In this document: piece after piece, positions 3,284-45,605 of the stretch
Numbering within the stretch: position 1 is the first letter of the stretch
How the letters are laid out: every line of letters begins with the position of its first letter
Origin: Xenophilus sp. E41
GTDB lineage: Bacteria; Pseudomonadota; Gammaproteobacteria; Burkholderiales; Burkholderiaceae_C
DNA length: 64,000 nucleotides
Direction of reading: 5' to 3'
NCBI RefSeq assembly: GCF_003671765.1
Contig: NZ_QPIB01000037.1
Coordinates: forward strand, 1 to 64,000
Notes under the pieces: model-generated
Seen by the model: only the letters and a program-made list of their open reading frames with translations
Database searches by the model: none
Told to the model about the DNA's origin: nothing
Program-made: the position numbers and the translations under genes

Positions 3284-3754
3284 ATGAAGTCCGGTACCCA
3301 GATCCGAGATGATGTCCTCGCCGAGTTGCGGTGGGATCCGGCCGTCAACGAGACCGATGTCGGCGTCATCGTGAAGGCCGGAAACGTGACCCTGACAGGC
3401 CACCTGTCCAGCTTCGCGGAAGAGTATGCCGCCGAGCTTACGGTGCAGCGCGTGGTCGGGGTGAGGCGCGCAGCCGAGGGCGCCGTACGCAACCTCCTGG
3501 GCGTCACCGGCGTCACCAACCTCATCACCCTGAAGCCGCGCGTCAAGGCCGACGCCATCGAGGGAAGGATTCGCGAGGCGCTGGAGCGCCGGGCGGACCG
3601 GGAGGCGAGAAGGATCGAGGTGGGCGTGGCCGGAACTGCAGTGACCCTCCGCGGCAAGGTGCACACGCTGGCCGAGCGCCAAGCCGCGCAGGGCGCTGCC
3701 TGGTCGGCACCGGGGGTGACCCGCGTCGTCAACGACATCCTGGTCGAGGCCTGA
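3284..3754 (+). CDS. BON-domain protein, shortened form (156 aa)
   Basis: BON domains are small alpha/beta folds found in periplasmic and stress proteins (OsmY, BON of transporters) and are thought to bind phospholipid or surfaces. The protein starts MKSGTQIRDDVLAELRWDP with an AGAGGAAAG-type ribosome binding site. It is clearly related to the 218-aa three-BON protein at 34192-34848: residues 1-60 match its first BON and about 85-156 its third, including the shared AAWSAPGVT. The middle BON is missing apart from its last strand (GVTGVTNLITLKP). No signal peptide is seen. It heads a rightward cluster with the PaaK-like gene 21 nt downstream. No FNR-type box was found upstream. Confidence 0.88.
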   Translation: MKSGTQIRDDVLAELRWDPAVNETDVGVIVKAGNVTLTGHLSSFAEEYAAELTVQRVVGVRRAAEGAVRNLLGVTGVTNLITLKPRVKADAIEGRIREALERRADREARRIEVGVAGTAVTLRGKVHTLAERQAAQGAAWSAPGVTRVVNDILVEA

Positions 3755-3774
3755 TTCACGAGCATCGGCGGTCC

Positions 3775-5184
3775 ATGGTCGTCGCGATGCCGCCGTCCTT
3801 CGAGCCATGGCGCGCATTCCTGGCGGCGGCCGAGGTGGCGACGGCCACGCGAGCCAGCGCGGCGGTGCTCGCTGCCTGCCGGGCGCAGCGCCTTGCGGCG
3901 TTGCTCGCAGCGGCCCGCGCAAACTCTCCGCGCTACCGGCATGTCCTGGCCGGCTGCAATCCCGCGACGCAGAAGCTCCAGGACCTGCCCATCGCGCGCA
4001 AGGCCGAACTCATGCGCGACTTCGACGGCTGGCTGGCCGACCCGGCCATCTCGCTGTCGATGCTGCGCCGCTTCGTTGCCGATAGCGCAAACATCGGGAA
4101 GGACTTCCTCGGCCGCTACACGGTGTGGGAGAGCTCGGGCAGCACCGGCGAACCCGCAGTCTTCGTGCAGGACGCGCAGGCCATGGCGGTGTACGACGCG
4201 TTGGAGGCGCTGCGCCGCCCACAGCTGCGACCGCTCGAGCGACTTCTGGACCCGTGGAGCCTGACGGAACGCATGGCATTCGTGGGCGCGATCGACGGGC
4301 ACTTCGCGAGTACCGTCTCGGTCGAGCGCCTGCGGCGCCTTCAACCGGGGCTTGCGACGCGCCTGGTCGGCATGTCGTTCCTGCAGCCGCTCCCGAGGCT
4401 CTGCGCAGAACTTGATGCATTCCAGCCCACGGTGATTGCGACCTACCCCAGTGCAGCCGTGCTGCTCGCGCAGGAGAGGCGTGCAGGCCGGTTGAAGGCC
4501 TTCCCGCGCGAGATCTGGACCGGGGGCGAGAACCTGTCGATGGCGAGCCGGAACTTCGTGCGCGAGGCCTTCGGTTGCCCGTTGGCCAACAGCTACGGCG
4601 CGTCCGAATTCCTGTCGCTGGCTTTCGAATGCACCGAGGGCGCCATGCATCTCAACAGCGACTGGGCGATCCTGGAGCCGGTCGACGCGCAGGGAAGGGC
4701 TGTGCCACCGGGGCGGGCGGGTGCAACGACGCTGCTCACCAACCTGGCCAACCACGTGCAGCCACTGATTCGCTACGACCTGGGAGATCGGGTCGTCATG
4801 CACGAGGTGCCGTGCCGATGCGGCTCACCCCATCCGGTCGTCGAGGTGAACGGGCGCGACGACGACATGCTGTGCCTTGCGGGAGTGACGGACAGGCGCC
4901 CGGTCTACATCGTGCCGTTGGCGGTGAGCACGGTCCTGGAGGAGGAGGCGGGATTGTTCGACTTCCAGCTGCTCCAGCGCGGGCCGCGAGAGCTGCTGCT
5001 GCGCACGGGCGAGCATGGCCCCGCGGCGGCGCGCACGCTGCACAGGGCGCGCATCGTGCTGGCGGCCTTTCTCAAGGCCCAGGGTGTTGCGAACGTCGCG
5101 ATTCATTGCCGGAGCGGAACTGCCGCGGCTTGCGGCCGGAGCGGAAAGACGCGGCGCGTGATCGCCTGCGCCGAAGGTGCCTGA
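3775..5184 (+). CDS. PaaK-like acyl-CoA ligase / adenylate-forming enzyme
   Basis: Adenylate-forming enzyme of the phenylacetate-CoA ligase (PaaK) / coenzyme F390 synthetase-like group. It is predicted to activate a carboxylic acid with ATP; the substrate is unknown. The phosphate-binding loop is ESSGSTGEP (about residue 120). Further landmarks are WTGGENL, the NSYGASEF motif that holds the adenine, and LIRYDLGDRV (the (Y/F)-x-TGD-like hinge motif). A short Cys-rich stretch, VPCRCGSPHP, follows, as is common in this family. The length of 469 aa fits. The start is ATG 3775 or ATG 3787; neither has a strong ribosome binding site. It follows the BON gene by 20 nt, so the two are probably cotranscribed. 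Similar orphan PaaK-like genes occur in anaerobic-stress loci of related bacteria. Confidence 0.78.
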   Translation: MVVAMPPSFEPWRAFLAAAEVATATRASAAVLAACRAQRLAALLAAARANSPRYRHVLAGCNPATQKLQDLPIARKAELMRDFDGWLADPAISLSMLRRFVADSANIGKDFLGRYTVWESSGSTGEPAVFVQDAQAMAVYDALEALRRPQLRPLERLLDPWSLTERMAFVGAIDGHFASTVSVERLRRLQPGLATRLVGMSFLQPLPRLCAELDAFQPTVIATYPSAAVLLAQERRAGRLKAFPREIWTGGENLSMASRNFVREAFGCPLANSYGASEFLSLAFECTEGAMHLNSDWAILEPVDAQGRAVPPGRAGATTLLTNLANHVQPLIRYDLGDRVVMHEVPCRCGSPHPVVEVNGRDDDMLCLAGVTDRRPVYIVPLAVSTVLEEEAGLFDFQLLQRGPRELLLRTGEHGPAAARTLHRARIVLAAFLKAQGVANVAIHCRSGTAAACGRSGKTRRVIACAEGA

Positions 5185-5232: not shown

Positions 5233-5661
5233 ATGACGCACATGGTTCAAGAGGCCACTACGGCGAGGCCGACGAGGCAGATGTCGCTTGTTCTCGCGGC
5301 GCTGCTGTGGCTGCCGGTCTTGGGCTGCGGCCAGTTCGGCACATCGGCACCGGCCGAAAGGAAGTTGACTGGCTCACTGGCCAGCGTCGCGTTGGGCAGT
5401 GTGGCGGCCAGGGCCATGGACGACAGTGACCGACGCCACGCGGCGGCGTCCCTGGAAGGCTCACCGGACGGCGCGCCTTCGATCTGGCGCAATCGTGAAA
5501 CCGGAGATCGCTTCATGTTCATGCCGGTGAGCAGTTTCACCCGGGGTGGCGCGAGATGTCGGGCTTTCAGGATCGAAGTGACGGTCGGCGGCCGCCCGGA
5601 CAGCATCGACGCAAGCGCATGCCGGCAGGCCGACGGCAGCTGGCGGATTCAAGGCAGGTAG
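5233..5661 (+). CDS. 17-kDa surface-antigen-type lipoprotein
   Basis: Small outer-membrane lipoprotein resembling the C-terminal part of the Rickettsia-type 17-kDa surface antigen family. The hydrophobic segment SLVLAALLWLPVLGC ends in a lipobox (V-L-G-C). The mature part ends in the family signature: WRNRETGDRF, then CRAFRIEVTVGG and ACRQADGSWRI, with two conserved cysteines. Function is unknown. The start is uncertain: ATG 5233 keeps arginines before the hydrophobic core, while ATG 5281 fits better with a transcript starting from the FNR box at 5194-5207. It is followed by the P-type ATPase gene. Confidence 0.75.
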   Translation: MTHMVQEATTARPTRQMSLVLAALLWLPVLGCGQFGTSAPAERKLTGSLASVALGSVAARAMDDSDRRHAAASLEGSPDGAPSIWRNRETGDRFMFMPVSSFTRGGARCRAFRIEVTVGGRPDSIDASACRQADGSWRIQGR

Positions 5662-5781
5662 GGCGTCGCCGTGTCGCGGGCAGCCTTCCCGGTCGCGAGC
5701 CCGTCCAGCGCGACGGCTGCGCGCCGCACGGTCTCGGCGGCCATGAGCCAAGGCAATGACCTGCGTCCCGGAGGATCGAAC

Positions 5782-8271
5782 ATGCCGGAGCGCCCACCCA
5801 CCGGCCTGACCGACGAGGAGGCCGCTCGGCGCCTGGACCGCGACGGGCCGAACGTTCTGCCCTCCGGTTCGCACAGAGGTGTTCTTCGCATCGCCCTCAA
5901 TGCGCTGACGCAACCGATGTTCCTGCTGCTGCTGGCCACTGCCAGTGTGTACGCGATGCTCGGCGACCTTGGCGACGCCGGCATGCTCGCCGCTTCCGTC
6001 CTGGTCGTCGGAGGGCTGTCGATCTACCAGGAGCAGCGCACGGAGCGCGTGCTCGAGGCATTGAAGGATCTGTCCAGCCCACGCTGCACGGTCGTGCGTT
6101 CCGGCAGGACCTTGCACATCGCGAGTCGCGAACTGGTGCGCGGCGACCGGCTGATGGTGAGCGAGGGCGACCGATTGTCCGCCGATGCACAGCTGCTCGA
6201 AGCGGTCGGTCTGCAGGTCGACGAGTCGCTTCGCACCGGAGAGTCGATTCCGCAGGACAAGCGTGCCGCGGGAGACGGCGACAGCGGACGACTGTTCGCC
6301 GGCAGCCTGGTCGTGCGCGGCGATGGCGTGGCCGAGGTCACCGCCACAGGGGCACACACGGCGCTTGGCGACATCCACCGCGTCATCGTCCAGCTTGCCC
6401 CGCGCCCGAGCCGGTTGCAGGCAGAGCTGCACCGGCTGGTGCGCCGTGTCGCCTTGCTCGCGGCGGGCACCTGCCTCGTCGCGGCTGCGGTATTCGCGCT
6501 GCGGGAGGGGTCGTGGACGCAGGGCCTGCTGGTGGGGCTGACACTCGCGATGTCGCTGATTCCCGAAGAGTTTGCGGTCGTCTGGAGCGTGATGCTGGCG
6601 CTGGGTAGCTGGCGGCTCGCCAGGTCGAACGTCCTGACCCGTCAGCCGCAGGCCATCGAGGCACTGGGCACCACGACGGTCCTGTGCGTCGACAAGACAG
6701 GAACGCTGACGCACAACCGCATGACGTTGACGGCGCTGCACGACGGTGACGCGCAGTGCCGGCTCGATGCGGGGCGTCCGGCGTCGCGCTTTCATGCCCT
6801 GATGTCCTGTGCCTTGCGCGCGAGCGGCACGCGCGGGGCCGAGCCCATGGACCGCGCGGTGCGAGCTGCCGCACAGGCGGCAGGATGGGACGGCGCAGAA
6901 GCGTCGGGCTGGGTTCCCGGACCGCATCGCGGCATCCGCGATGGTGCGCCCTACGTGGTGCATTGGTGGCAGGCGGCGGATGCGGCCGGCTCCACCGTGG
7001 CGGTGAAGGGGGCTGCAGAGGCCGTGCTCGCGCTGTGCGACGGCGATACGGAACGCATCCAGCGCCTGCGCGAAGCCGCCGAGCGGTGGGGCGCCGCCGG
7101 CCTTCGCGTGCTCGCCGTGGCCGAGGGCCAGGTTCCGCCGGGCGGCCGAGCGGAGATGGACGCCGGGCTGCCGCCGGGGATGAAGCTCTCGGCGCTGGGC
7201 CTGCTGGGCTTCCTGGATCCCTTGCGCGAACAGGTACCCGGCGCCATTGAAGCCTGCCGTCGCGCTGGAGTCCGCGTGGTCATGATCACTGGTGACGCAG
7301 CTCTTACGGCGCAATCGATCGCCCGGCAGGCCGGCCTGGTCGATGGCGGCGAAGCGAAGGTGCTGACCGGCAGGGCGCTGGCCGGGATGGACGATGAGGC
7401 ATTGCGTCGGCGCGCCCGGGATGTGCACGTCTTCGCGCGAGTCGACGCCGCTCAGAAGCTGCGCATCGTGCGCGCCCTGCAGCGGCAGGGAGACGTGGTG
7501 GCGATGACGGGTGACGGTGTGAACGACGCGCCCGCGCTCAAGGCGGCCGACATCGGCGTGGCCATGGGCCAGCGCGGCACCGACGTCGCTCGCGAGGCGG
7601 CGTCGCTGGTGCTGCTGGACGACAACTTCGCCTCGCTGGTGGAGGCCGTGCGAGCGGGCCGGCGCATCTTCACCAACCTGCGCAAGGCGCTGGGATACCT
7701 CTTCGCCGTGCATGTGCCGATCGTCGGTGTGGCGCTGATCCCGGTGGCAATGGGCGGGCCCGTGCTGCTCTTGCCCTTGCACGTCGTGTTGCTCGAATTG
7801 CTGATCGACCCGGCCTGTTCGCTCGTGTTCGAGGCCGAGCCGGCGGACGACGACAGCATGTCGGTGCCGCCGCGCCGGCGTGACGATGCGCTCTTTTCGC
7901 TCGCTTCGGCTGCTCGTGCGTTCGCGATGGGTGCGCTTGTGTTCGCCGGCGTGGCCGCCGTGCAGTGGGCATGCAGAACCGCAGGGGCCTCGCACGAGGA
8001 ACTCCGCATGGCCAGCCTGGGTTCGATCGTGCTGGGCAACCTGCTGCTGTTGCAGAGCTTCCGAGGCACCGGCCGGCGGCCGACGCATGGCAACACGACC
8101 TTCTATGCGCTGCTCATCGGTGTGTGCGTGGTCTGGATCCTGCTCACGGCGGTGCCGGGCGTCGGCAGTGTGTTCGGGCTGCCGGGCCGTCCTTCGCCGT
8201 GGGCGCTGTGGGTGGTGCTGCCGGCAGCCTGGGCCCTGCGGCACCTCGTCGCCGGCGCGCGGCAGCCTTGA
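5782..8271 (+). CDS. Cation-transporting P-type ATPase (P2-like), 829 aa
   Basis: ATP-driven cation pump of the inner membrane. It has an N-terminal cation-ATPase domain (GLTDEEAARRL...GPN), the actuator motif RTGESIPQDK, the M4 ion-site motif IPEEF (PEGL in calcium pumps), the phosphorylation site DKTGTLTHN, the hinge MITGDAALTA and TGDGVNDAPALKAADIG, then a C-terminal membrane domain with about six helices. The absence of CPC and of heavy-metal-binding domains argues against a copper or zinc pump; calcium or magnesium-like transport is more likely. Start ATG 5782 has GGAGG 8 nt upstream. The mycobacterial DosR regulon contains a similar pump (CtpF), which fits the dormancy theme of the neighbours. 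The kinase fusion gene follows 17 nt later. Confidence 0.92.
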   Translation: MPERPPTGLTDEEAARRLDRDGPNVLPSGSHRGVLRIALNALTQPMFLLLLATASVYAMLGDLGDAGMLAASVLVVGGLSIYQEQRTERVLEALKDLSSPRCTVVRSGRTLHIASRELVRGDRLMVSEGDRLSADAQLLEAVGLQVDESLRTGESIPQDKRAAGDGDSGRLFAGSLVVRGDGVAEVTATGAHTALGDIHRVIVQLAPRPSRLQAELHRLVRRVALLAAGTCLVAAAVFALREGSWTQGLLVGLTLAMSLIPEEFAVVWSVMLALGSWRLARSNVLTRQPQAIEALGTTTVLCVDKTGTLTHNRMTLTALHDGDAQCRLDAGRPASRFHALMSCALRASGTRGAEPMDRAVRAAAQAAGWDGAEASGWVPGPHRGIRDGAPYVVHWWQAADAAGSTVAVKGAAEAVLALCDGDTERIQRLREAAERWGAAGLRVLAVAEGQVPPGGRAEMDAGLPPGMKLSALGLLGFLDPLREQVPGAIEACRRAGVRVVMITGDAALTAQSIARQAGLVDGGEAKVLTGRALAGMDDEALRRRARDVHVFARVDAAQKLRIVRALQRQGDVVAMTGDGVNDAPALKAADIGVAMGQRGTDVAREAASLVLLDDNFASLVEAVRAGRRIFTNLRKALGYLFAVHVPIVGVALIPVAMGGPVLLLPLHVVLLELLIDPACSLVFEAEPADDDSMSVPPRRRDDALFSLASAARAFAMGALVFAGVAAVQWACRTAGASHEELRMASLGSIVLGNLLLLQSFRGTGRRPTHGNTTFYALLIGVCVVWILLTAVPGVGSVFGLPGRPSPWALWVVLPAAWALRHLVAGARQP

Positions 8272-8288: not shown

Positions 8289-9815
8289 ATGGACACCACG
8301 CTGGTCGAGGCATTGCGCGAAGCGCTCCGGCAGGAGCATGGCGAGCCGGTCGAGCAGGTGGAGACACACATTTCCTGGGTGCTTCTGACCAGCACCGACG
8401 CGTTCAAGCTCAAGAAGCCGGTGCGCCTGCCCTTCGTCGACTTCAGCAGCGTCGCGGCGCGCAAGCACTTCTGCGACGAGGAACTTCGGCTCAATCGGCG
8501 CGTCGCTCCTGCGCTGTACCTTGACGTCTTGCCGGTGTGCGGCAGCCCGGCGTCGCCGCGGATCGGCGGTGCGGGTGCGCCGATCGACCATCTTGTGCAC
8601 ATGAGGCGGTTTCCGCCGTCATCCCTGTTGTCCGATCTGCTGGGAACCGGTCGACTCGATCCTGCCCGGATCGATGGCCTGGCACAGCGGCTGCATGCCC
8701 TGCACGCCGGCGCGGAGCGCGCCGCCCCGGATTCCGGATTCGGCAGTCCGGAACGAATCGCCGGCGCGGTGGCGAAGGTGCTGGCGGGGTTGCCGACGCA
8801 CCACGACGAGCGGCTGGCCACCCTCGGTGCCTGGATGCGCGACCAGGAACGCGCACTGCGCATGGCTTGGATCACACGCCAGCAAAGCGCAGCGGTGCGT
8901 GAATGCCATGGCGACCTGCATGCCGGCAATGTCGTCCTGCTGGATGGGGAGCTTGTGCCCTTCGACTGCATCGAGTTCGACCCGGCGCTGCGATGGATCG
9001 ACGTGATCAGCGATGTCGCCTTCCTCACGATGGACCTGCAGGCCCGGGGCTACGAGGATCTTGCATTCCGCTTCCGGGATGTCTGGCTGCAGCACAGCGG
9101 CGACTATGAGGGGCTCAGGGTATGGCGCTTCTACGAGGTGTACCGGGCGCTGATACGCGCCATGGCCGCGCAACTGGCGCCAAAGAGTGCACAGGGGCGG
9201 GCGACCCCCGATTACGTGGCCTGTGCCTGGCAACTGAGCCGGCAGCACCGCGTCGGGGCGCGGCTGATGATCACGCACGGCTTCTCCGGTGCGGGCAAGT
9301 CGAGCGTCGCCTCTCGATTGCTCGGTGCCCTGGGAGCGGTCCGGGTTCGGTCCGACGCTGAACGCAAGCGCCTTCACGGCCTTGGCCCGCTCGCCCGGTC
9401 GGCCGAACACGGGCTCGACATCTATGGTGAACAAGTGACGGCCCGGACCTTCGAGCGCCTGCGCGTCTGCGCGCGAGAGGCGCTGCTCGCGGGCTACCCG
9501 GTGATCGTGGACGCGAGCTTCCTTCGTCGTGCCGAGCGCCTGCAGTTCCGTGCCTTGGCCAGCGAACTGCGGGTGCCCTTCACCATTCTGGATTGCCGGG
9601 CCGACCCGCAAACCCTGCGCCGGCGGGTCGTGGCACGCGCGGCCGCAGGGCTGGACCCTTCCGAAGCCGGCCCGACGGTGCTGGAGCACCAGTTGGCACA
9701 TCACGAAGCTCTGCTGGCCGACGAGCGCGCCTGCGCCATCGAAGTGGACACGCAAGGGCCGGTGGACATTCCGTCGATCGAAGCGGCCTGGTGCGCCGCC
9801 GGCCGGTGTGCATGA
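8289..9815 (+). CDS. Two-domain kinase: APH-like phosphotransferase plus P-loop kinase
   Basis: Fusion of an aminoglycoside-phosphotransferase-like domain (COG2187 type, about 1-320) with a P-loop kinase domain (COG0645 type, about 325-508). The first has the Brenner motif CHGDLHAGNVV and a downstream metal-binding FDCIEFDPALRW. The second has Walker A GFSGAGKSS, a VRSDAERKRL motif and IVDASF as Walker-B-like strand. The substrate is unknown and a role in antibiotic resistance is not implied. Fused proteins of this kind are common in proteobacteria, often with stress genes. Start ATG 8289 follows GGGAGCCCG after the ATPase stop. It converges with the next gene over only 11 nt. Confidence 0.85.
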   Translation: MDTTLVEALREALRQEHGEPVEQVETHISWVLLTSTDAFKLKKPVRLPFVDFSSVAARKHFCDEELRLNRRVAPALYLDVLPVCGSPASPRIGGAGAPIDHLVHMRRFPPSSLLSDLLGTGRLDPARIDGLAQRLHALHAGAERAAPDSGFGSPERIAGAVAKVLAGLPTHHDERLATLGAWMRDQERALRMAWITRQQSAAVRECHGDLHAGNVVLLDGELVPFDCIEFDPALRWIDVISDVAFLTMDLQARGYEDLAFRFRDVWLQHSGDYEGLRVWRFYEVYRALIRAMAAQLAPKSAQGRATPDYVACAWQLSRQHRVGARLMITHGFSGAGKSSVASRLLGALGAVRVRSDAERKRLHGLGPLARSAEHGLDIYGEQVTARTFERLRVCAREALLAGYPVIVDASFLRRAERLQFRALASELRVPFTILDCRADPQTLRRRVVARAAAGLDPSEAGPTVLEHQLAHHEALLADERACAIEVDTQGPVDIPSIEAAWCAAGRCA

Positions 9816-11394: not shown

Positions 11395-11725
11395 GCCGGT
11401 GGCGCTCGGGTCGGCCGGGGGTGCGAACCTGCTGTTCGTCCTCGCGTCGCCCCTGCGAAGAAGCACTGCCGCGACGTGCTCGGGCCAGGGCTTCGGGGTC
11501 CATGGGCACCTTGCGGCAACCTTGCGCGAGCGCAAGGGTCCCGCCGGCGGATCGGGAGCTAATGGAGGCATTGCGGAGAGAGCCATGACTGTCGATGCCA
11601 TCCCCTCGTGCATGCATGAAATCGACGCCCCGGCACGGCCGTGGTGTTTGCAGCGGAACGCGACCTCCGCCGGCACGAGCCGGCACGAGCAGGAGGCGGC
11701 CGCAGGTGTCCGACATGCAGTCGTC
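11395..11725. other. Divergent intergenic region with a direct repeat
   Basis: Between the hsp20 box and the cytochrome c gene no gene is convincing. A tandem direct repeat, CCGGCACGAG twice in a row, lies near 11,675-11,695. The reading frame of the cytochrome gene is open through this region, but the upstream part has no protein-like sequence. Confidence 0.35.
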
Positions 11726-13395: not shown

Positions 13396-13399
13396 GGCG

Positions 13400-13714: not shown

Positions 13715-13745
13715 GATGAACTCCGAACGGGTGGAAGGAGCCGCT

Positions 13746-15064: not shown

Positions 15065-15075
15065 GGCCGTCTCCT

Positions 15076-21699: not shown

Positions 21700-21720
21700 T
21701 CGATCCACGAGGCCGTTGCG

Positions 21721-22788: not shown

Positions 22789-22800
22789 CGCCTCCCTCGC

Positions 22801-28160: not shown

Positions 28161-28183
28161 GCGGGGAAGCGGGCTCGGACGCC

Positions 28184-37544: not shown

Positions 37545-39635
37545 TCAGCCGCGGGGGGCCACCCGGGCCAGTACGTCGATCAGCTCGGTCCGCGAAAACG
37601 GCTTCTGCAGCAGCTCGCAACCGGCGGGGAGCTGGCGGTCCGCCTCCATCAGCTCGGCGGAGTAGCCCGACATGAGGACGATGGAAATGCCGGGTGTCGC
37701 CTGCAGGGCCTGCACGGCCAGTGTCGTGCCCTGCATGCCCGGGCCCAAGGAGACGTCGCTCAGGAGCAGGTCGAAGCGGGGCGACCCGGTCTGCAGCAGC
37801 GCCAGTGCCTCCTCGCCGCTGGCCGCTTCCTCGACCTTGTAGTCCAGTGAGCGCAGGAGGCGGCTGGCGACCTTGCGCACCTCGGCATCGTCCTCGACCA
37901 GCAAGGCTTGCCCACCGGCACGGCGCGCGAGTGCGGCCGGCGCCGCATGTGCCTCGCGCGGGACGGCATGCTCGTCACGGACCGGGAGGGACAGCGTCAC
38001 GGTGGTGCCTGCGCCGGGCTGGGACTCCACCTCGACATGGCCGCGCGACTGCGAAGCGAACCCGTAGACCGTGCTCAGTCCCAGGCCGGTTCCTTTTCCC
38101 GGTGGCTTGGTGGTGAAGAAAGGCTCGAACGCGCGCTTTTTCGTCTGTTCGTCCATGCCAGCCCCGGTGTCGGCAACGGAAATCGCCACCATCGGATGGC
38201 GCCCGGCGTCCGGCCCGGCCGCTTCGGGCAAGGGGTAGGCTCTGAAGCTCAGCGTCCCGCCGCCGGGCATCGCGTCACGGGCGTTGATGGCCAGGTTCAG
38301 GAGGGCGGACTCCAGCTGGCCGGCGTCGACCCAGGCGGTCGGGCAACCCGGGGCGACATGCAGGTCCACGCGGATGCGCCGGTCCAGGGTCCGGCCCAGC
38401 ATGTCGCACAGCGACTCCAGCAGCGCCCCCAGGTCGACACGTTCCGTCTGGAGGCGCTGGCGGCGCGAGAACGCCAGCAGTTTGCGCGTCAGCGCGGCGC
38501 CGCCGCCTGCGGCGCGCAACGCGGCTTGCAGAAGTCGCACGGCCTCGGGGTCGTGCGCGACGGCGGGCAGGTCCTCCAGGACCTGCAGGTTGCCCTGCAC
38601 GATGGTCAGCAGGTTGTTGAAGTCGTGGGCCACGCCGCCGGTGAGCTGGCCGATGCTCTCCAGCCGCCGGGCGTGGTCGAGCTGTTCCTCGGATCGCAGA
38701 CGCTGGTGGGTGGTCGCGAGCAGATTGGCGGCCGACTCGAGGAAGTGCAGTTCGTCTTCGCCGAAGCGATGGGGCAGCCGGCTCCTGACCGACAGGATGC
38801 CGATGATCTGCCCCCGGTCGGCCAGGGGCACGGCAAGAGCGCTCCGCAGACCGGCGTCGTGCCAGGCCTGCGGCACCGCGAAGCGCGTCTCTTCGCGCAG
38901 GTCGCCCACCCGCACCGCGGACAGCTGCCGGGCGACGAGGCTGGGCAGGGAGTCCGGCCGGCTTCCCACCTGCAGCCCGACATATTCGCCCGTCGGCATG
39001 CCGATCCCCCCGACCAGGCGAAAGACGTTGCCCGGGCGGTCGAGCAGCCAGGCAATCGCCACCTCCACCTCCTGCGCCGAGGCGACGATCTCCGGCACCC
39101 GCTGGACGATCTGCGCCAGGTCGCGACTTTCGACGGTCAGTCGAGCCAGCTGGGCGAGGTGCTCGCTGTACCGTGCACGCTTCAGGGCCTGCTTGACGCG
39201 TGGATAGTCCGCGATGTCGCGGATGGCGGCCAGGACGAAGTGCGACCCGGGCCGCTCCAGTGGACTGAGTGCGATCTCGACGATGACCTCGGAGCCGTCC
39301 TTGCGACACGCGGCCAGCTCCGTGCGGGTGCCCATGGGCCTTCGCTGCGGGGCCCGCGCATAGGCCGCCCGGTAACCGGCGTGGCGTGCGCGGCTTGCCT
39401 CGGGGACCAGGTGCTCGATCGGCATCCCCGCAAGCTCGCCGGTGGTGTATTGCAGGAGCGCGGCAGCCGCCGGGTTCGCGGCCGCGATCGACCCGTCGGG
39501 CCCGACCACCAGCAGGGCGTCGGGATGGGCCTCGAAGATGGACTGGAGGACCTGCACGTCCACGCCCGGAGCGGCCAGAGGGCCGGTCGACGCCGAGTCC
39601 TCGGGGGGCGGGGTGCGCGCACCGGATTCAGCCAT
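37545..39635 (-). CDS. Soluble hybrid histidine kinase PAS-GAF-HK-REC
   Basis: 696 aa without a membrane segment. It has a PAS domain (about 28-150, IFEAHPDALLVVGPDGSIAA), a GAF domain (about 165-320, IVQRVPEIVASAQEVEVAIA), the phospho-acceptor box LTGGVAHDFNNLLTIVQGNL (His about 345), a HATPase domain (SVADTGAGMDE, GTGLGLSTVYGF) and a C-terminal receiver (LLVEDDAEVRK, phospho-Asp in LLLSDVSLGPGM). Its start overlaps the end of the response-regulator gene by 8 nt. The pair probably senses a redox or metabolic signal in the cytosol. Confidence 0.92.
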   Translation of the reverse strand: MAESGARTPPPEDSASTGPLAAPGVDVQVLQSIFEAHPDALLVVGPDGSIAAANPAAAALLQYTTGELAGMPIEHLVPEASRARHAGYRAAYARAPQRRPMGTRTELAACRKDGSEVIVEIALSPLERPGSHFVLAAIRDIADYPRVKQALKRARYSEHLAQLARLTVESRDLAQIVQRVPEIVASAQEVEVAIAWLLDRPGNVFRLVGGIGMPTGEYVGLQVGSRPDSLPSLVARQLSAVRVGDLREETRFAVPQAWHDAGLRSALAVPLADRGQIIGILSVRSRLPHRFGEDELHFLESAANLLATTHQRLRSEEQLDHARRLESIGQLTGGVAHDFNNLLTIVQGNLQVLEDLPAVAHDPEAVRLLQAALRAAGGGAALTRKLLAFSRRQRLQTERVDLGALLESLCDMLGRTLDRRIRVDLHVAPGCPTAWVDAGQLESALLNLAINARDAMPGGGTLSFRAYPLPEAAGPDAGRHPMVAISVADTGAGMDEQTKKRAFEPFFTTKPPGKGTGLGLSTVYGFASQSRGHVEVESQPGAGTTVTLSLPVRDEHAVPREAHAAPAALARRAGGQALLVEDDAEVRKVASRLLRSLDYKVEEAASGEEALALLQTGSPRFDLLLSDVSLGPGMQGTTLAVQALQATPGISIVLMSGYSAELMEADRQLPAGCELLQKPFSRTELIDVLARVAPRG

Positions 39636-40356
39636 CCGTCACCGGCCCGATGAAGATGTATCCGGCACCGCGAACCGACTTGATCAGCTGCGGGTCGTCC
39701 GGGTTCGCCTCGATCTTGCGGCGCAGGCGTCCGACCTGCACGTCGATCGTGCGGTCGAAGGGCGCCGCGTCGCGCCCTCGGGTACAGCCGAGCAGGAAGT
39801 CGCGCGACAGCACGCGTCCCGGGTGGCGGGCGAAGGCCTGCAGCAGCTCGAATTCGCCCCGCGTCAGTGCCACGTCCTCGCTCGCCGGGCTGCGCAGGCT
39901 GCGCGCCGCCATGTCGAGCGTCCAGCCGGCGAACCGCAGCAGGCCGGCATGCTGCGTCGGGGCAGGTGCCGCGGCGTCCGCGCGCGGGACGGTTCGTCGC
40001 AGCACGGCCTTGATTCGGGCCACGAGTTCGCGCAGGTCGAACGGCTTGGTGACGTAGTCGTCGGCGCCGACCTCCAGGCCCACCACCCGGTCCACCGCGT
40101 CGCCCCGACCCGTGACGATGATCAGCCCGCAGCTGTGGTGTTCCCGCAGGCTGCGTGCGATGGAGAAACCGTCCTCGCCCGGCAGGCCGAGGTCCAGCAG
40201 CACCAGGTCCGCCGGATCGGCCTTCATGGTGCTCAGCAGCGAACCGCCGTCCTGGTGGCTCGACACCCGGAAGCCGTGGCTGCGCAGGTACTGCTCCAAC
40301 AGCACGGTGATTTCCGCCTCGTCGTCCAGGATCGCAACGTGGAAGCCGGTTTTCAT
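39628..40356 (-). CDS. OmpR-type response regulator
   Basis: 242 aa with a receiver domain (HVAILDDEAEITVLL, phospho-Asp in LVLLDLGLPGEDG, Lys in YVTKPFD) and a winged-helix DNA-binding domain (LTRGEFELLQAFARHPGRVL, then TIDVQVGRLRRKIE). It is likely the partner of the overlapping hybrid kinase. ATG 40356 was chosen over upstream codons because the protein fold starts there. An FNR-type box lies 77 nt upstream. Confidence 0.92.
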   Translation of the reverse strand: MKTGFHVAILDDEAEITVLLEQYLRSHGFRVSSHQDGGSLLSTMKADPADLVLLDLGLPGEDGFSIARSLREHHSCGLIIVTGRGDAVDRVVGLEVGADDYVTKPFDLRELVARIKAVLRRTVPRADAAAPAPTQHAGLLRFAGWTLDMAARSLRSPASEDVALTRGEFELLQAFARHPGRVLSRDFLLGCTRGRDAAPFDRTIDVQVGRLRRKIEANPDDPQLIKSVRGAGYIFIGPVTDG

Positions 40357-40496: not shown

Positions 40497-41024
40497 ATGA
40501 GCAAGGTGTTGGTCGTTGTGTATTCGTACACCGGTACGTCGCGGCGCGTGGCCGAACTGCTGTCCAGTCAGCAGGGCTGGCCGCTGGGCACAGTGGCCGA
40601 GATCCGACCGCGCCGGGGCGTCGAGGGCAATTTGCGCTGCGTCCTCGATTCGCTGCTGCGGCGCAGGCCGCCGGTGCGCTACGACGGGCCGCCGCCCGAG
40701 GACTTCGACCTCGTGGTTCTCGTCGCTCCGATCTGGCTGCTGCGCATGGCTGGCCCCATGCGCAGCTTCGTCGGGCGTTCCGGGCGGGCGCTGCGCCGCG
40801 TGGCCGTCCTGTCGGTCATGGGCGGGCAGGGCGCGCCCAATGCCGCCGCCGAGATCGCCGCGCTCTGCGGATCGACGCCGCTGCTCGCCGCCGCCGTGAC
40901 CCAGCGCGAGGCGGACGACGGCAGTTGTGCGGGCCTGTTGCAGTCCTTCGGCACCGCGATCCAGGGCGCGCTGGGCCCGGCAGCGCCGGTGCGCGCTGCC
41001 GAGCTCTCCACGCAGGCCGTCTAG
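40497..41024 (+). CDS. Flavodoxin-family protein
   Basis: 175-aa FMN-binding protein. The N-terminal phosphate loop is VVVYSYTGTSRRVAELL (S/T-x-T-G-x-T-like), followed by DLVVLVAPIWLLRMAGPMRS, the second FMN loop. Electron donor and acceptor are unknown; family members are short-chain redox proteins or NADPH-dependent reductases. GGAG lies 8 nt upstream of ATG 40497. The protease gene follows 13 nt later. Confidence 0.85.
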   Translation: MSKVLVVVYSYTGTSRRVAELLSSQQGWPLGTVAEIRPRRGVEGNLRCVLDSLLRRRPPVRYDGPPPEDFDLVVLVAPIWLLRMAGPMRSFVGRSGRALRRVAVLSVMGGQGAPNAAAEIAALCGSTPLLAAAVTQREADDGSCAGLLQSFGTAIQGALGPAAPVRAAELSTQAV

Positions 41025-41037: not shown

Positions 41038-42480
41038 ATGGTGCAAGCACGTCGCGCAGCACGCGGGACGCGCCTCGCCGGCGCCGTCCTCGCGGGCGCG
41101 ATGCTCGCGGGCTGCGCGGCGGTCGGCCGGGCGGAGGTCGGGGCGGCCGGGTCCCCGGTCGCCATCCGGTCGGATGCGCCCGGCTTTTCGGCGCTCGTCG
41201 GGCAGCTCGCGCATTCGGTGGTCGATATCCGCACCTTGCGCATCGGCCGCGACGAAGCCGCCGACGACCAGAACCCCGATCTCTCGCCCGACTTCGACTT
41301 CGCGGATCGGCTGGCGCAGCCGCTGGCCACGCAGGTGCAGGTGAGCCAGGTCCGGGATCTCGCATCGGGGCTCGTGATACGCGAGGATGGACTCATCCTC
41401 ACGAGTGCGCACGTGGTGGCGGGCGTCGACGACGTCCAGGTCCAGCTCGACGACGGGCGCCGGTTCACCGCGCGCGTGCTCGGGGCGGACCGGCGCTCGG
41501 ATGTCGGTCTGCTGAAGATCGAGACGAAGGGCCTGCCAGTGGCGGCCCTGGGCGATCCGGCCACCACCCGGGCGGGGGACTGGGTGGCAGCGATCAGTTC
41601 GCCGTTCGGATTCCATTCGAGCGTGACCGCCGGCGTCGTCAGTGCCGTGGGTCGCTTCCTCAACGGGGCGGGCGAGATCCCGTTCATCCAGACCGACGTC
41701 GCCATCAACCCTGGCAGCTCGGGCAGCCCGCTGTTCAACGTGCGAGGCGAAGTCGTGGGCATCAATTCCCTGATCTACAGCGCGAACGGGGGCTACATGG
41801 GCCTGTCGTTCGCGGTGCCGATCGATCTGGCGATGCGTGTCGCCGGACAGCTGGAACGCGAGGGCATGGTGCGGCGTCCGCAGTTGGGTCTGGCGACGCA
41901 GACCCTGACGCCCGCGCTGGCCGATGCCTTCCAGCTTCCACGTCCCGAAGGTGCTCTGGTGGTGCGGGTGAGTGCGGGCAGCGCGGCCCAGCGCGGCGGA
42001 CTGATGCCGGGAGACGTGGTCGTCGCCGCGAATGGCGCAGCGATTCACCAGCCGATGGATCTCGTGAACATCGTCAACGGGCAGCCGGAACGAGCGCCGC
42101 TGCAACTGCAGGTATTTCGTGCAGGTCGAGCGCTTGCCCTGCGCGTCGTGCCGGGGCCCAGGCTGGCGGATGCGCCTCTCGAGTTCAAGCCAGCCGACAC
42201 GCCCTGGCGCGACGGCATCGGTCTGAGCCTGGCCGAGCTGTCGACTCGGCTGCGCGCGCAGACCGGAACGGAGACCGGCGTGCTTGTGCGAGAGGTCGAG
42301 GGCGCCGCGCGGCGCGATGGTGTCCAACGCGGGGACGTGATCGTCGGCGTGAATGCCGAGAAGGTATCGGGCATCGACGAGTTCCAGCGAGCCCTGGCCA
42401 AGGCAGCCGGACGCCCCGCCGTCGCGCTGCTGGTGGTCCGTCAGCGACGCATGGCGTACGTGTCCGTGCAATTGCGCTGA
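41038..42480 (+). CDS. DegP/HtrA-type serine protease, lipoprotein form, two PDZ domains
   Basis: 480 aa. The signal peptide ends in the lipobox LAGAMLAGC, so the protein should be membrane-anchored in the periplasm. The trypsin-like domain (about 40-280) has His in LTSAHVVAG, Asp in RRSDVGLLKIE and Ser in NPGSSGSPLFN. The usual GNSGGP is changed to GSSGSP, but the Ser is kept. Two PDZ domains follow (about 285-375, 385-478). It is likely a quality-control protease for stress in the envelope. The flavodoxin gene lies directly upstream. Confidence 0.9.
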   Translation: MVQARRAARGTRLAGAVLAGAMLAGCAAVGRAEVGAAGSPVAIRSDAPGFSALVGQLAHSVVDIRTLRIGRDEAADDQNPDLSPDFDFADRLAQPLATQVQVSQVRDLASGLVIREDGLILTSAHVVAGVDDVQVQLDDGRRFTARVLGADRRSDVGLLKIETKGLPVAALGDPATTRAGDWVAAISSPFGFHSSVTAGVVSAVGRFLNGAGEIPFIQTDVAINPGSSGSPLFNVRGEVVGINSLIYSANGGYMGLSFAVPIDLAMRVAGQLEREGMVRRPQLGLATQTLTPALADAFQLPRPEGALVVRVSAGSAAQRGGLMPGDVVVAANGAAIHQPMDLVNIVNGQPERAPLQLQVFRAGRALALRVVPGPRLADAPLEFKPADTPWRDGIGLSLAELSTRLRAQTGTETGVLVREVEGAARRDGVQRGDVIVGVNAEKVSGIDEFQRALAKAAGRPAVALLVVRQRRMAYVSVQLR

Positions 42481-42729: not shown

Positions 42730-43491
42730 ATGGGACCGGGCGGCGCACCTGTGAGCGCCGCGGCGGTGGCGACGCAGGAGGCGTTGTCCTGCCGCGGCTG
42801 CCCCCACCTGGGCGTGTGCATGCCGGCGCTGGCCGTGCCGAGCGAGGGCAAGCCCGTGCGGCTGATATCGAACCGCCTGCTGCTGCAGCGCCGCGAGCCG
42901 CTGCTCGCTCAGGGAGACCGATTTGTTGCGGTGTACGGCGTGCGCCGCGGCCTGCTCAAGGGCGTGCTCGGGACCGGCGCGTCCAGCGGCGTGGTCACCG
43001 GGTTCTTCTTTCCAGGGGACGTGGCGGGACTGGACGGCATCGCGATGGATCGGCATCCGACCGGCCTGCTGTCGGTCACCGACGCCGAAGTCTGCGTCAT
43101 CCCGTTCGGACGCCTGGAGGCCTGGGCCGCGCGGTCCTCGCAGGCACAGCGTCATCTGCATCGATTGCTGTCGAAGGAGATCGGTCGCAGCTGCATGGCC
43201 CTGCTGCCCTTGGCCCGTCTCACGGCCGCCCAGCGGGTCGCCGACTTCCTGCTGCGCTTCGCAGCCGCGCAGTCGCACGGCAGCGGCAGCCCATCCGATT
43301 TCGTCCTGGCCCTCACCCTGGAAGAGATGGGCAGCCACCTGGGGCTGCAAATGGAAACCGTGTCGCGCGTGCTGTCGCAACTGGTGTCGCAGCGGCTGAT
43401 CGCCCGGGAGGGGCGCAGCCTGCGCATTCTCGAGCAGGGCGACCTCGGCCGCCTCGCGCGGGCGCAGCAGATCGGCCCTGACGCAGGCTGA
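42730..43491 (+). CDS. FNR/ANR-type oxygen-sensing regulator with Fe-S cysteines
   Basis: 253-aa CRP/FNR-family regulator. N-terminal cysteines at 21, 24 and 30 (SCRGCPHLGVC, C-x2-C-x5-C) and another at 122 (DAEVCVIP) coincide with the spacing of the [4Fe-4S] ligands of E. coli FNR (20, 23, 29, 122). The C-terminal helix-turn-helix EEMGSHLGLQMETVSRVLSQ carries E-x-x-S-R for TTGA recognition. It should dimerise and activate from TTGAY-N4-RTCAA boxes when oxygen is absent, and is the obvious candidate controller of the surrounding locus. ATG 42730 gives the FNR-like N-terminus. Confidence 0.92.
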   Translation: MGPGGAPVSAAAVATQEALSCRGCPHLGVCMPALAVPSEGKPVRLISNRLLLQRREPLLAQGDRFVAVYGVRRGLLKGVLGTGASSGVVTGFFFPGDVAGLDGIAMDRHPTGLLSVTDAEVCVIPFGRLEAWAARSSQAQRHLHRLLSKEIGRSCMALLPLARLTAAQRVADFLLRFAAAQSHGSGSPSDFVLALTLEEMGSHLGLQMETVSRVLSQLVSQRLIAREGRSLRILEQGDLGRLARAQQIGPDAG

Positions 43492-43547
43492 CCGCGGGCG
43501 ACATCCGTCGGCAGGAGCGCGGCCTTGGGGGTGAATGCGCCGCAGGC

Positions 43548-45605
43548 TCAGCGCGGGTTGCCGATCCAGTGATCGACGGTCTTCAACAGGTCCTCGGGCG
43601 ACACCGGTTTGGTCACGTGGGCGTCGAAGCCGGCGGCCGCCGTGCGCTCCCGGTCTCGCGCAGAACCCCAGCCGGTCAAGGCCACGATCCGTGGCTGCGG
43701 AACGCCGGCTTCCGAGCGAAGGCGCTCGGCGATCTCGAAGCCGTCCATGGCCGGCAATCCCAGATCGAGCAGCACGACCTCGGGATGCATGTGCCGTGCG
43801 GTCTCCAGCGCGGACGGGCCATCGGCCGCGCCGATCACCTCGTGCCCTTGCGCCCTGAGCAGTTCCACCAGCGTGCTTCGTCCGTCCGGGTTGTCCTCGA
43901 CGACGAGGACGCGTCCCCGCCGTGCGGGCGTCGCCGGCGGCACGGCGCGCGCCGCCGGTTCCACGGGAGCCGTCTCGAGTGGCAACGAGACTCGGAAGGT
44001 GCTGCCCTGATTCAGGCCGGCGCTCTGGACCTCCACCGCACCGCCGTGCATCTCCACCAGGCTCTTGACGATCGACAAGCCGATGCCGAGTCCACCGTGC
44101 GCCTTGGCGCCCGTGTGGGGCAACTGGGTGAAGAGATCGAAGAGCCTGGACTGGTCCGCTGCCGGTATGCCCAGCCCGTTGTCCGAGACCTCGATCAGCG
44201 CGCGGTTCGCCTCGACCGTGCATGACAGCGAAAGCTCGCCGCCGTCGGGGGTGTACTTGACCGCGTTGTTCAGCAGGTTGGTGACGATCTGCACGATGCG
44301 CGATGGGTCCGCGAGGATGGGCGCCGGCGTATCGGGCAGGCTGAGCGTCAGGCGGTGGCGCGCGGCGTTCACCCCTGGCTGCGCCGCTTCGACGGCCTGC
44401 ACCAGCAAGGCAGACAGATCCAGGACCTCGCGCTTGAGCTCGACCACGCCGCGGCTGATGCGCGACACGTCGAGCAGATCGTCGACGAGCCGCACGAGGT
44501 GGCTCGTCTGGCGTTCGATGACTTCCGTGCGGCTCAGCAGCCGCGCGGGGTCCTTCTCGCGCTTCATCAACGCGATCGCGTAGAGCATCGGCGCGATCGG
44601 GTTGCGCAGTTCATGCGCCAGCGTGGCGAGAAACTCGTCCTTGCGCCGGTCCTGCAGGCGCAGTGCCGCCGCATCGCGCACGCGTTCGATGTGCGCCCAG
44701 CACCGGTCCACCACTTCGGTGATGACTTCCAGATCCTCGGCGTTCCACTGGCGTGGTTCGGCTTGATGAACCGCCATCATCGCCACCAGCAGCCCGCGCT
44801 TGACCAGGCCGGCGCAGACGATGGCCTTGATGCCGATCGCGTTGAACATCTTCGCCCCGCCCTCGTCGCCGAGATCGCGGTCGACATCGTCCACCACCAG
44901 GTGGCGCCCCATGCGAAGGTTGGACGTCGCCCGCGGTCCGAAGAGTTCCAGCGAATAGACGTCGACGCTGGAAGGCACGCTGGGCGACCAATCGGCACGG
45001 ATGGTGAATCGGTTGTTGTCGGCCTCGACGTCCGCGTAGGCGCAGCGCGTCGCCTCCAGGTGCTCGCCCAGGAGCCGGGTCGTCACCTCCATCACGTCCT
45101 GGGCACTGTTCAAGGGCCGCGTGGCGCGTTCGATGCGATTGAGCAGCTCCAGCCGTCGGCGGCCGCGCTCCGCCGAGGCCTCGGCATGCTTTCTTGCGGT
45201 GATGTCGATCACGGTGCCGATCGCCCGCACGCATTCGCCCTGGTCGTTGAAAAGACCGCGTCCCTTGGCAGCGACCCACCGCATGACCCCGTCTTCCTTG
45301 CCGATGGTTCGGTACTCGACGTCGTAGACCGTTCGCAGGTCCGGGTTCTGGCAGTCCGCGAAGGCACGCAGCACGTGCCCGGCGTCCTGCGGGTGGAGGC
45401 AGGCCTCGAAGTCGTCGAGCGTGGCGGTGGCGTCGGGCGAAATGCCGAACATGGCCTTCACCCGCGCCGGCCAGTACAGCGTGTTGGTGGCCACATCGAC
45501 GTCCCAGAGCCCGACCTCTGCAGCGTCGATGGCAAGCCGCAGCTGCTCCTCGCGCTGGCCCAGAGTGAGTGTGGCGATGCTCGCGCCCTGTGCGGTCTGG
45601 CTCAT
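43548..45605 (-). CDS. Soluble hybrid histidine kinase PAS-GAF-HK-REC (second copy)
   Basis: 685 aa with no membrane helix. It has a PAS/PAC domain (about 22-150, LAIDAAEVGLWDVDVATNTL), a GAF domain (about 165-310), an acceptor box FLATLAHELRNPIAPMLYAI, a HATPase (VSDNGLGIPA, GGLGIGLSIVKSL) and a C-terminal receiver (VLVVEDNPDGRS, Asp in VVLLDLGLPAMDG, Lys in HVTKPVS). It is less similar to the first hybrid kinase than the shared layout suggests. ATG 45605 was chosen. It is divergent from the small membrane gene at 45796. Confidence 0.92.
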   Translation of the reverse strand: MSQTAQGASIATLTLGQREEQLRLAIDAAEVGLWDVDVATNTLYWPARVKAMFGISPDATATLDDFEACLHPQDAGHVLRAFADCQNPDLRTVYDVEYRTIGKEDGVMRWVAAKGRGLFNDQGECVRAIGTVIDITARKHAEASAERGRRRLELLNRIERATRPLNSAQDVMEVTTRLLGEHLEATRCAYADVEADNNRFTIRADWSPSVPSSVDVYSLELFGPRATSNLRMGRHLVVDDVDRDLGDEGGAKMFNAIGIKAIVCAGLVKRGLLVAMMAVHQAEPRQWNAEDLEVITEVVDRCWAHIERVRDAAALRLQDRRKDEFLATLAHELRNPIAPMLYAIALMKREKDPARLLSRTEVIERQTSHLVRLVDDLLDVSRISRGVVELKREVLDLSALLVQAVEAAQPGVNAARHRLTLSLPDTPAPILADPSRIVQIVTNLLNNAVKYTPDGGELSLSCTVEANRALIEVSDNGLGIPAADQSRLFDLFTQLPHTGAKAHGGLGIGLSIVKSLVEMHGGAVEVQSAGLNQGSTFRVSLPLETAPVEPAARAVPPATPARRGRVLVVEDNPDGRSTLVELLRAQGHEVIGAADGPSALETARHMHPEVVLLDLGLPAMDGFEIAERLRSEAGVPQPRIVALTGWGSARDRERTAAAGFDAHVTKPVSPEDLLKTVDHWIGNPR

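Follow-up and report, generated by a model that had tools for sequence, protein, structure and literature searches.

A probable composite low-oxygen survival locus in Xenophilus sp. E41, with what appears to be its own promoter-site code

What would a soil and water bacterium gain from 42 clustered genes for stress proteins, metabolic enzymes, an exporter and Crp/Fnr regulators? The survival of anoxia by aerobic bacteria is poorly understood, and such a locus offers a compact case. It occupies positions 3284–45605 of the window analysed here, which is the first 64 kb of a 100,054-base contig (NZ_QPIB01000037.1) in the 5.92-Mb draft genome of Xenophilus sp. E41. A 21-kb stretch of Xenophilus aerolatus E41 matches its 22 window genes at 100%, which makes the organism this species or one extremely near to it. 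A first-pass annotation of this DNA had described it as a complete version, outside Burkholderia, of the low-oxygen-activated (lxa) locus. The function that this implied finds support in about 12 gene classes shared with lxa and in promoter sites of the FNR/FixK type, and as judged from sequence the locus very probably helps the bacterium survive oxygen loss. With good though not full confidence we regard it as a composite locus for survival at low oxygen, one that resembles lxa in its role and was assembled and wired independently of it. Clusters of the low-oxygen survival kind are already known; apparently new here are the locus's own site code and a shrunken carbamoyltransferase, OTCN, beside the main regulator.

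The 42 genes were predicted by a codon-usage gene-calling script, and the outer start and end were those of the first-pass annotation. Pfam and NCBIfam profile searches, which covered all genes except those at 21721, 25539 and 29430, backed every gene class that it had named (Table 1). Further members that it had not named are a FabI-type enoyl reductase (19473), an exporter (20248–26678), a kinase-like protein with APH and AAA_33 domains (8289), an OmpR-type regulator (39628), a flavodoxin-like protein (40497) and a gene related to ornithine carbamoyltransferase (OTC; 36009). The OEP and RbbA components of the exporter were assigned by profile, and HlyD and the permease by match to annotated Leisingera genes, the relatives through which 21721 and 25539 were named.

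Since gene content is weak evidence for a low-oxygen role, the promoter sites were examined. Boxes of the form TTGA/C-N6-T/GCAA stand at operon heads across the locus (two canonical, eight hybrid and one one-letter variant of the canonical form), all of them intergenic. The exact canonical box TTGAYNNNNRTCAA occurs nine times genome-wide when each is counted once, and two of these fall within the locus, against a mean of 0.005 in shuffled intergenic DNA of the window. The remaining seven include one site flanked by a putative hemN and a regulator that shows the Fnr cysteine pattern, and another 5' of a putative ccoN; we presume these names from start sequence, gene order and general knowledge. 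We then surveyed relatives of 15 gene sets from the match position to 350 bp upstream, with loci of the same species excluded and several loci per genome possible. Exact boxes were frequent upstream of relatives of phaC (23/42) and Usp1 (11/28; Usp, universal stress protein), and were also found for fabI (6/46), the MaoC–phosphotransacylase (MaoC-Pta) fusion (4/84), AAA_33 (8/65) and the P-type ATPase (3/19), but for only one relative of the outer membrane factor (1/26) and for none of ackA (0/84), the ABC ATPase (0/36) or the alcohol dehydrogenase of the 9827 type (0/4). Four control palindromes gave a single match in total across all 15 sets.

The hybrid sites follow one asymmetric pattern, TTGCG-N4-RTCAA (TTGCGNNNNRTCAA). 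All eight are intergenic by our own gene calls, seven of them 64–220 bp from a gene start, and shuffled intergenic sequence gave a mean of 0.02. The motif was noticed in the window among weaker box matches and was then fixed and tested in other loci. Four Variovorax stretches (172 kb) held 23 hybrid and 22 canonical sites, with 20 of the 23 hybrid sites intergenic; a related locus in another genome of the family, G294 (59 kb), held nine and five, and in the surroundings of FNR1 relatives (forty stretches of 20 kb, 800 kb in all) the counts were 31 and 37. Other dinucleotides at positions 4–5 reached at most three in the Variovorax and G294 sets and up to nine around FNR1 relatives, canonical forms being counted on one strand and other forms on both. 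The balance was canonical in an lxa-type locus of Burkholderia stagnalis (69 kb; two hybrid, 15 canonical) and on the Paraburkholderia plasmid pOLGA1 (68 kb; one hybrid, 12 canonical), and no hybrid site was found in 160 kb of the congener G469. The Xenophilus genome carries 21 hybrid sites, eight of them in the locus, and a reversed-pattern control gave 11 genome-wide, which puts the 13 sites beyond the window close to background. One of these 13 lies 57 bp upstream of a Usp gene (G000:C6:7375-7882), which is likely an outlying member of the regulon.

The hybrid site is itself a known kind of low-oxygen site, because it fits the FixK2 box of Bradyrhizobium diazoefficiens (TTGA/C-N6-T/GCAA) and the predicted box of groEL5, TTGCGCTAGGTCAA, as given in PMC9104804. 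Genes with predicted boxes that go down in the fixK2 mutant include groEL5 and genes for Hsp20, Usp, phaC2, acetate kinase and HlyD/ABC components (PMC9104804). What appears to be novel is the use of this site as the main code of one locus.

Which proteins might read such a code? In the window, the OmpR-type response regulator RR40 and the PAS-GAF hybrid kinase HK39 run toward the regulator FNR1, which is divergent from OTCN; beyond OTCN follow h36 and a triple-BON gene. The order RR40-HK39-FNR1-OTCN-BON recurs on three Variovorax megaplasmids and FNR1-OTCN-BON on two more, so that this unit is found on all five (VAI-C, EBFNA2, 2u118, PDNC026 and SPNA7). Proteins of the FNR1 clade (at least 54% identity) were found in 43 of 250 genomes of the family; at an E value of 1e-60, an order-wide sample of 300 gave three matches, one of them outside the family. 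The control block thus formed seems to be new and nearly confined to one bacterial family. Twenty FNR1 neighbourhoods of 40 kb each contained HK39 and RR40 in 18 cases and an OTC-like gene in 17, one of which (in G412) is a genuine OTC. In 29 short FNR1 loci, a strict score rule found OTCN in divergent orientation in 21, an exact FNR box lay upstream in 21, and HK39 was on the opposite strand in at least 21, a lower bound given the short loci; 19 of these genomes recur from the set of 20, their own OTCN sequences being among the queries. The ten new loci had OTCN by the strict rule in six, scores below that of genuine OTC in two, OTCN on the same strand in one and none in one. Within 450 bp 5' of FNR1 an exact box was present in 20 of 26 relatives and a control in none of the 26; the window has a one-letter variant.

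Both proteins that had been called FNR regulators belong to the Crp/Fnr family, and the FNR cysteine pattern is confined to the second. By alignment, the N terminus of FNR2 (42751) has CX2CX5C and a fourth cysteine, which we take to be the [4Fe-4S] FNR pattern and which the genome's own Fnr also shows; cluster binding by FNR2 is predicted. FNR1 (36746) is without this N-terminal cluster, and no N-terminal cysteine column is common to more than five of its 26 relatives. These relatives have cysteines at the positions equivalent to 109 (24/26), 131 (19/26) and 160 (24/26) of the window protein, which itself retains only Cys 160 and has Ser at 109. The motif E-x2-SR, whose role we presume from general knowledge, is identical in Fnr, FNR1 and FNR2, and half-site preference can therefore not be read from it.

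In place of a FixK2-like FNR1 homodimer, the asymmetric sites could be read by Fnr–FNR1 (or Fnr–FNR2) heterodimers, an alternative that we hold to be a real possibility while leaning away from it. The half-sites here do differ from each other, the genome encodes three Fnr-type proteins, and in Herbaspirillum seropedicae promoters co-bound by two Fnr paralogues, those of usp and fnr1 included, carry a site that combines two half-sites, and heterodimers were proposed for them (PMC5934665). Two points weigh against heterodimers: the published FixK2 consensus already accepts TTGC half-sites (PMC9104804), and E-x2-SR does not differ among the three proteins.

OTCN is related to the N-domain of OTC, with profile matches under the curated cut-offs. 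The STRTR carbamoyl-phosphate loop is absent from all 22 aligned members and present in the two genuine OTCs of the same alignment. The Tyr of LGRLYDAIEY is replaced by Cys in 22/22 aligned OTCN proteins (G412 excluded as a genuine OTC) and in 9/9 further loci, that is 31/31. The OTCN tail aligns to the C-terminal end of OTC, with the intervening part shortened: 57–68 residues follow the Cys in 24 of the 31 (60 in the window) and 140–162 in seven, against 225–226 after the equivalent Tyr in the two genuine enzymes. These short and intermediate size classes suggest a stepwise loss of the ornithine domain from inside the protein, and OTCN is apparently non-catalytic. Its start position is uncertain in several genomes, and the AlphaFold model of OTCN alone (mean pLDDT, the predicted local distance difference test score, 42.7) was too low in confidence for use. 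A plain broken gene was ruled out because OTCN is retained next to FNR1 with an invariant Cys; a bare N-domain cut short was likewise rejected, as the tail matches the OTC C terminus and the middle is missing. A limited literature search found nothing on point for OTC together with Crp-Fnr proteins. We suggest, as an unlikely but specific idea, that FNR1 and OTCN form a new regulatory pair, in which dead OTCN would sense a metabolite or redox state (for example carbamoyl phosphate or thiol state) and tune cluster-less FNR1 in its reading of TTGCG-N4-RTCAA, the pair commanding a dedicated anoxia-survival regulon in the family.

The core operon raises a separate question, that of its metabolism. 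Among the MaoC-Pta loci, taken as the 80 best of a longer list, the exact eight-gene order phaC-fabI-exporter-MaoC/Pta-ackA was found in 6 of 79; in the 57 loci of at least 20 kb, ackA was beside MaoC-Pta in all, fabI was near it in 32 and phaC in 26. A limited literature search gave nothing on point for the MaoC-Pta fusion enzyme. In H. seropedicae, ChIP-seq and RNA-seq are reported to place an operon containing phaC2-fabI under direct Fnr1 control (PMC5934665). As both a phosphotransacylase and an acetate/propionate kinase are encoded, ATP formation through them is likely; butyrate formation is less so. Fermentation of polyhydroxybutyrate (PHB) or crotonyl-CoA to butyrate and acetate, giving anoxic ATP, would fit the linkage of PhaC, FabI, the MaoC fusion and the kinase in alpha-, beta- and gammaproteobacterial loci and the presence in MaoC and FabI of motifs that we take to be catalytic, and the phosphate butyryltransferase model TIGR02706 gives the transacylase domain 296 bits (under the cut-off of 410.5) against 79 from the Pta model TIGR00651. 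We nevertheless consider this route doubtful, for the same domain reaches 470.9 bits with the phosphate acetyltransferase model PRK11890, above its cut-off of 413, and FabI, like PhaC not always near MaoC-Pta, may serve fatty acid synthesis. The kinase at 28157 is of the acetate/propionate type (TIGR00016, 328.7 bits); 44.7 and 67.1 bits with the butyrate kinase models ruled out that assignment.

Comparison with other genomes points to a composite locus, in which the widespread operon phaC-fabI-exporter-MaoC/Pta-ackA is set within a stress shell nearest to that of Variovorax megaplasmids. At least one of three Variovorax strains has a match of at least 40% identity, and up to 80%, for 21 of the 42 genes. 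In the congener G469 the core operon lies at another place, with a Usp gene behind it, and the 160 kb examined there showed no shell; across the whole G469 genome the AAA_33 kinase had no match and FNR1 only a 43% Fnr-like one. The right flank of the window (urease genes from 51496) is syntenic with the same congener. The left flank consists of a tyrosine integrase and the contig start, the first 4 kb has a low GC content of 0.62, and no tRNA gene was found in the window; the integrase stretch is a possible island edge. Third-position GC differs weakly between the core (0.87–0.95) and the other genes of the locus (0.78–0.91). We infer that the core was already resident when the shell was added to it, the integrase perhaps helping.

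Nor is the position outside Burkholderia, to which the first-pass annotation had pointed, a special one: plasmids of Variovorax, Paraburkholderia and Leisingera carry related loci, as do Collimonas, Ralstonia soli and G294. Several of the Variovorax megaplasmids share the P-type ATPase, AAA_33, Usp, flavodoxin and DegP genes; their clusters differ in being megaplasmid-borne and in giving no MaoC-Pta or exporter match in the stretches examined. pOLGA1 of Paraburkholderia phytofirmans OLGA172 resembles the locus in Hsp20, Usp, AAA_33, alcohol dehydrogenase, PhaC, MaoC-Pta, AckA, FabI, the P-type ATPase and an exporter, and differs in being a plasmid, in adding cydAB, a second ATP synthase operon and arcDA, and in its site balance. 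With its 271 kb, pOLGA1 resembles a portable anoxia kit. Partial likenesses were seen elsewhere. Rhizobium plasmid pRL9 groups exporter, AAA_33 kinase, Usp and BON genes. On a 70-kb plasmid of Leisingera caerulea, P-ATPase, Usp, AAA_33, Usp and RbbA exporter genes stand next to U32 peptidase, UbiX/UbiD-like and NnrS genes, a neighbourhood suggestive of anaerobic quinone synthesis. Rhodococcus pDK1 has a cluster of GAF kinase, Usps, AAA_33, phosphofructokinase and 2-oxoacid dehydrogenase genes, close in content to the DosR regulon and to this locus, and an Amphritea plasmid has Crp/Fnr and cbb3-type oxidase genes within 12 kb of AAA_33 and no annotated Usp.

Several observations weigh against a composite locus with wiring of its own. 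The hybrid-motif count in the window is post hoc, the Variovorax and G294 sets being the independent test. Whole-genome hybrid counts are mostly background (985 sites against 442 reversed-control sites in the 41 FNR1 carriers among 250 genomes), and G294 has hybrid sites and no FNR1-clade match, so that FNR1 is at most a candidate reader of these sites. AAA_33 and MaoC-Pta stand on one contig within 60 kb in only three of the 49 genomes having both, two of them of this species, a count read by eye from assemblies of which many are fragmented; the AAA_33 kinase, present in 91 of 250 family genomes, was accordingly rejected as a marker of the locus. Only 2 of 79 MaoC-Pta loci contain three or more shell genes, and LysR, glyoxalase, DUF6506, the E1/E2 genes and the adenylate-forming enzyme are without a good match in the comparison loci.

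Could the locus instead be a true lxa orthologue, passed as one piece between Burkholderia and this genus by inheritance or transfer? The published lxa list (Table 2 of PMC4981469) does share about 12 classes with it, from PhaC to the CRP regulator. For sequence comparison B. stagnalis YJ-2 stood in for J2315, its locus being recognised by the usp76 and usp92 primer sites (4/27 and 2/20 mismatches) and by gene order; most of the twelve primers tried matched poorly. Only 14 of the 42 genes matched this stand-in, at 24–63% identity and with some pairs sharing one target; the order differs, the sites are mostly hybrid here (two canonical, eight hybrid) and canonical there, and the shell is nearest to Variovorax. 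Orthology is thus very unlikely, and the description as a complete lxa locus, which several lxa labels and four further Usps would be needed to fill, is not sustained. Least credible of all is that stress and metabolic genes gathered on a genomic island by chance and without common oxygen control, since the sites cluster far above controls and the same types recur in independent genomes, even if an integrase marks the left edge, the shell was not found in the congener and several genes are without good matches in the comparison loci.

We therefore return to the composite reading and propose how such a locus might work in three layers. The first would be the phaC-fabI-exporter-maoC/pta-ackA operon, widespread in proteobacteria and presumably driven by its canonical FNR box. 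The second would be the stress shell (P-type ATPase, AAA_33 kinase, Hsp20, Usp, BON, DegP, flavodoxin and alcohol dehydrogenases), most of whose operons carry the putative FixK2-type site TTGCG-N4-RTCAA. The third would comprise the OmpR regulator and PAS-GAF kinase by cluster-less FNR1, divergent from OTCN, with an FNR box 5' of FNR1 in most relatives. A fall in oxygen would lead [4Fe-4S] Fnr, possibly joined by FNR2, to turn on the core operon and FNR1, after which FNR1, alone or as a heterodimer, and RR40 could carry the signal across the shell. Energy would be conserved as acyl phosphate is converted to ATP by the kinase, with PHB and the alcohol dehydrogenases as redox buffers, and other products may protect proteins and the envelope. 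The case combines a promoter code that would mark its own regulon, a regulator block found almost wholly in one family and an enzyme that seems to have become part of a regulator and whose intermediate forms can still be seen. It also suggests that loci of this kind arise by combining a stable operon for metabolism with a stress shell that can move.

Table 1. Features of the window, with their predicted identities and the basis or setting of each
Feature	Position	Strand	Basis or setting
Tyrosine integrase, left of locus	1368..2603	-	Pfam Phage_integrase + Arm-DNA-bind_3
Hybrid site TTGCGCCGCATCAA	3172..3185	-	112 bp 5' of BON gene
Two-BON-domain protein	3284..3754	+	PF04972
Adenylate-forming (PaaK/F390-related) enzyme	3775..5184	+	PF00501; NCBIfam under cut-off
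Canonical FNR box TTGACCGCAATCAA	5194..5207	+	87 bp 5' of 17-kDa/P-ATPase/AAA_33 genes
17-kDa surface antigen-like protein	5281..5661	+	PF16998; 62% to Variovorax VAI-C
P-type cation ATPase	5671..8271	+	Profile match; 79–80% in two Variovorax megaplasmids
APH + AAA_33 kinase-like protein	8289..9815	+	PF13671
Zn alcohol dehydrogenase (adh_fam_2)	9827..10849	-	Pfam, NCBIfam
Hsp20	10892..11323	-	PF00011
Hybrid site TTGCGCTGTGTCAA	11381..11394	+	Between Hsp20 and cyt/Usp genes
Small c-type cytochrome-like protein	11585..12130	+	One CXXCH; Pfam under cut-off; 65% to Variovorax
Universal stress protein	12151..12597	+	PF00582
2-oxoacid dehydrogenase: E2 core, DUF6506, separate lipoyl domain, E1 beta, E1 alpha	12637..16002	-	Pfam/NCBIfam
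Hybrid site TTGCGCTGCGTCAA	16437..16450	+	116 bp 5' of alcohol dehydrogenase
Zn alcohol dehydrogenase, AdhP type	16553..17581	+	NCBIfam above cut-off
Canonical FNR box TTGACGCAGATCAA	17643..17656	+	104 bp 5' of phaC
PhaC, class I polyhydroxyalkanoate synthase-like	17747..19471	+	Under NCBIfam cut-off
FabI-type enoyl reductase	19473..20243	+	NCBIfam PRK07533 above cut-off
Exporter: outer membrane factor, HlyD, RbbA-type double ABC ATPase, ABC permease	20248..26678	+	
MaoC hydratase–phosphotransacylase fusion	26733..28160	+	PRK08190 753.7 bits; DVNPQH motif
Acetate/propionate kinase	28157..29380	+	TIGR00016 cut-off 293.4; NCBIfam only
Hybrid site TTGCGATTTGTCAA	31783..31796	+	5' of h31-Usp genes
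Uncharacterised protein h31	31870..32259	+	54–55% in two Variovorax strains; no Pfam match
Universal stress protein, long form	32273..33094	+	PF00582
Small histidine kinase, no sensor domain found	33191..33940	-	Profile search
Triple-BON protein	34192..34848	-	PF04972
Hybrid site TTGCGGTTGATCAA	34938..34951	+	103 bp 5' of triple-BON gene
Hybrid site TTGCGCGCCGTCAA	35982..35995	+	400 bp 5' of 35224–35595; weakest of eight
OTCN, ornithine carbamoyltransferase-derived	36009..36512	-	PF02729 E 8e-6, NCBIfam E 1e-9, both under cut-off
One-letter FNR-box variant TTGAGGAATGTCAA	36567..36580	+	FNR1/OTCN divergent promoter
FNR1, Crp/Fnr regulator without N-terminal FeS cysteine cluster	36746..37516	+	Profile, alignment
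HK39, PAS-GAF hybrid histidine kinase	37545..39635	-	Profile search
RR40, OmpR-type response regulator	39628..40356	-	Profile search
Hybrid site TTGCGCCAGATCAA	40433..40446	-	Between RR40-HK39 and flavodoxin-DegP
Flavodoxin-like protein	40497..41024	+	Weak NCBIfam match; 60–63% to Variovorax genes, two annotated flavodoxin
DegP-like protease	41038..42480	+	Profile search
Hybrid site TTGCGGCACGTCAA	42531..42544	-	220 bp 5' of FNR2
FNR2, Crp/Fnr regulator, CX2CX5C + fourth Cys	42751..43491	+	Profile, alignment
HK44, PAS-GAF hybrid histidine kinase	43548..45605	-	Profile search

Among the remaining genes, the 2-oxoacid dehydrogenase has a split E2 (12637–14054), in which a catalytic protein of 252 aa and a lipoyl protein of 102 aa are encoded apart, along with DUF6506. 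Its best foreign matches among 250 genomes of the family were about 50% and mostly lay within longer frames; the shorter E2 frames of G489 (367 aa) and G317 (271 aa) may be comparable splits.

How does the locus compare with systems already described? By label, the lxa locus of Burkholderia cenocepacia J2315 (BCAM0275A–BCAM0323) shares with it Usp, Hsp20, BON, cytochrome c, Zn alcohol dehydrogenase, PhaC, Pta, AckA, an outer membrane–HlyD–ABC exporter, a cation ATPase, a CRP regulator and a two-component pair, as listed in PMC4981469. It has six Usps against the two here (12151 and 32273). No gene here is labelled SulP, lysine decarboxylase, PhbB, metallo-beta-lactamase, metallopeptidase, ribonucleotide reductase, phosphofructokinase or cytochrome b561, and the fusion of MaoC to Pta and the extra FNR1-OTCN block set the locus apart. 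The distribution of lxa among Burkholderia strains is patchy, and a limited literature search found nothing on point for lxa outside that genus. Deletion of lxa is reported to lower anoxic survival (PMC3759415; PMC9104464), which supports the survival reading by analogy. The Xenophilus locus thus probably works like lxa, and its identity with lxa is not established.

The FixK2 regulon of B. diazoefficiens, as published, resembles the locus in Usp, Hsp20, phaC2, acetate kinase, HlyD/ABC genes and predicted sites that include TTGCG-N4-RTCAA (PMC9104804). It is alphaproteobacterial, many of its targets are scattered, and FixK2 stands under FixLJ where an OmpR-type neighbour is found here. In the Fnr1/Fnr3 regulon of H. 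seropedicae, dksA-phaC2-fabI is a direct Fnr1 target and usp genes fall in the hybrid-motif group; Fnr1 and Fnr3 are treated there as [4Fe-4S] proteins, unlike the FNR1 described here, which is without such cysteines (PMC5934665). The parallel that the first-pass annotation had drawn with the DosR regulon of Mycobacterium tuberculosis, here compared by class only, holds for gene classes and fails for the regulator. We take Rv1997 to be CtpF, and the domains of Rv2004c are likewise assumed from general knowledge. Both genes are named among the dormancy genes (PMC5309233), and the shared classes include alpha-crystallin and Usps (PMC6127331). DosR itself is of the NarL family, whereas the sole stand-alone response regulator here is of the OmpR type and the promoters carry FNR/FixK-type sites.

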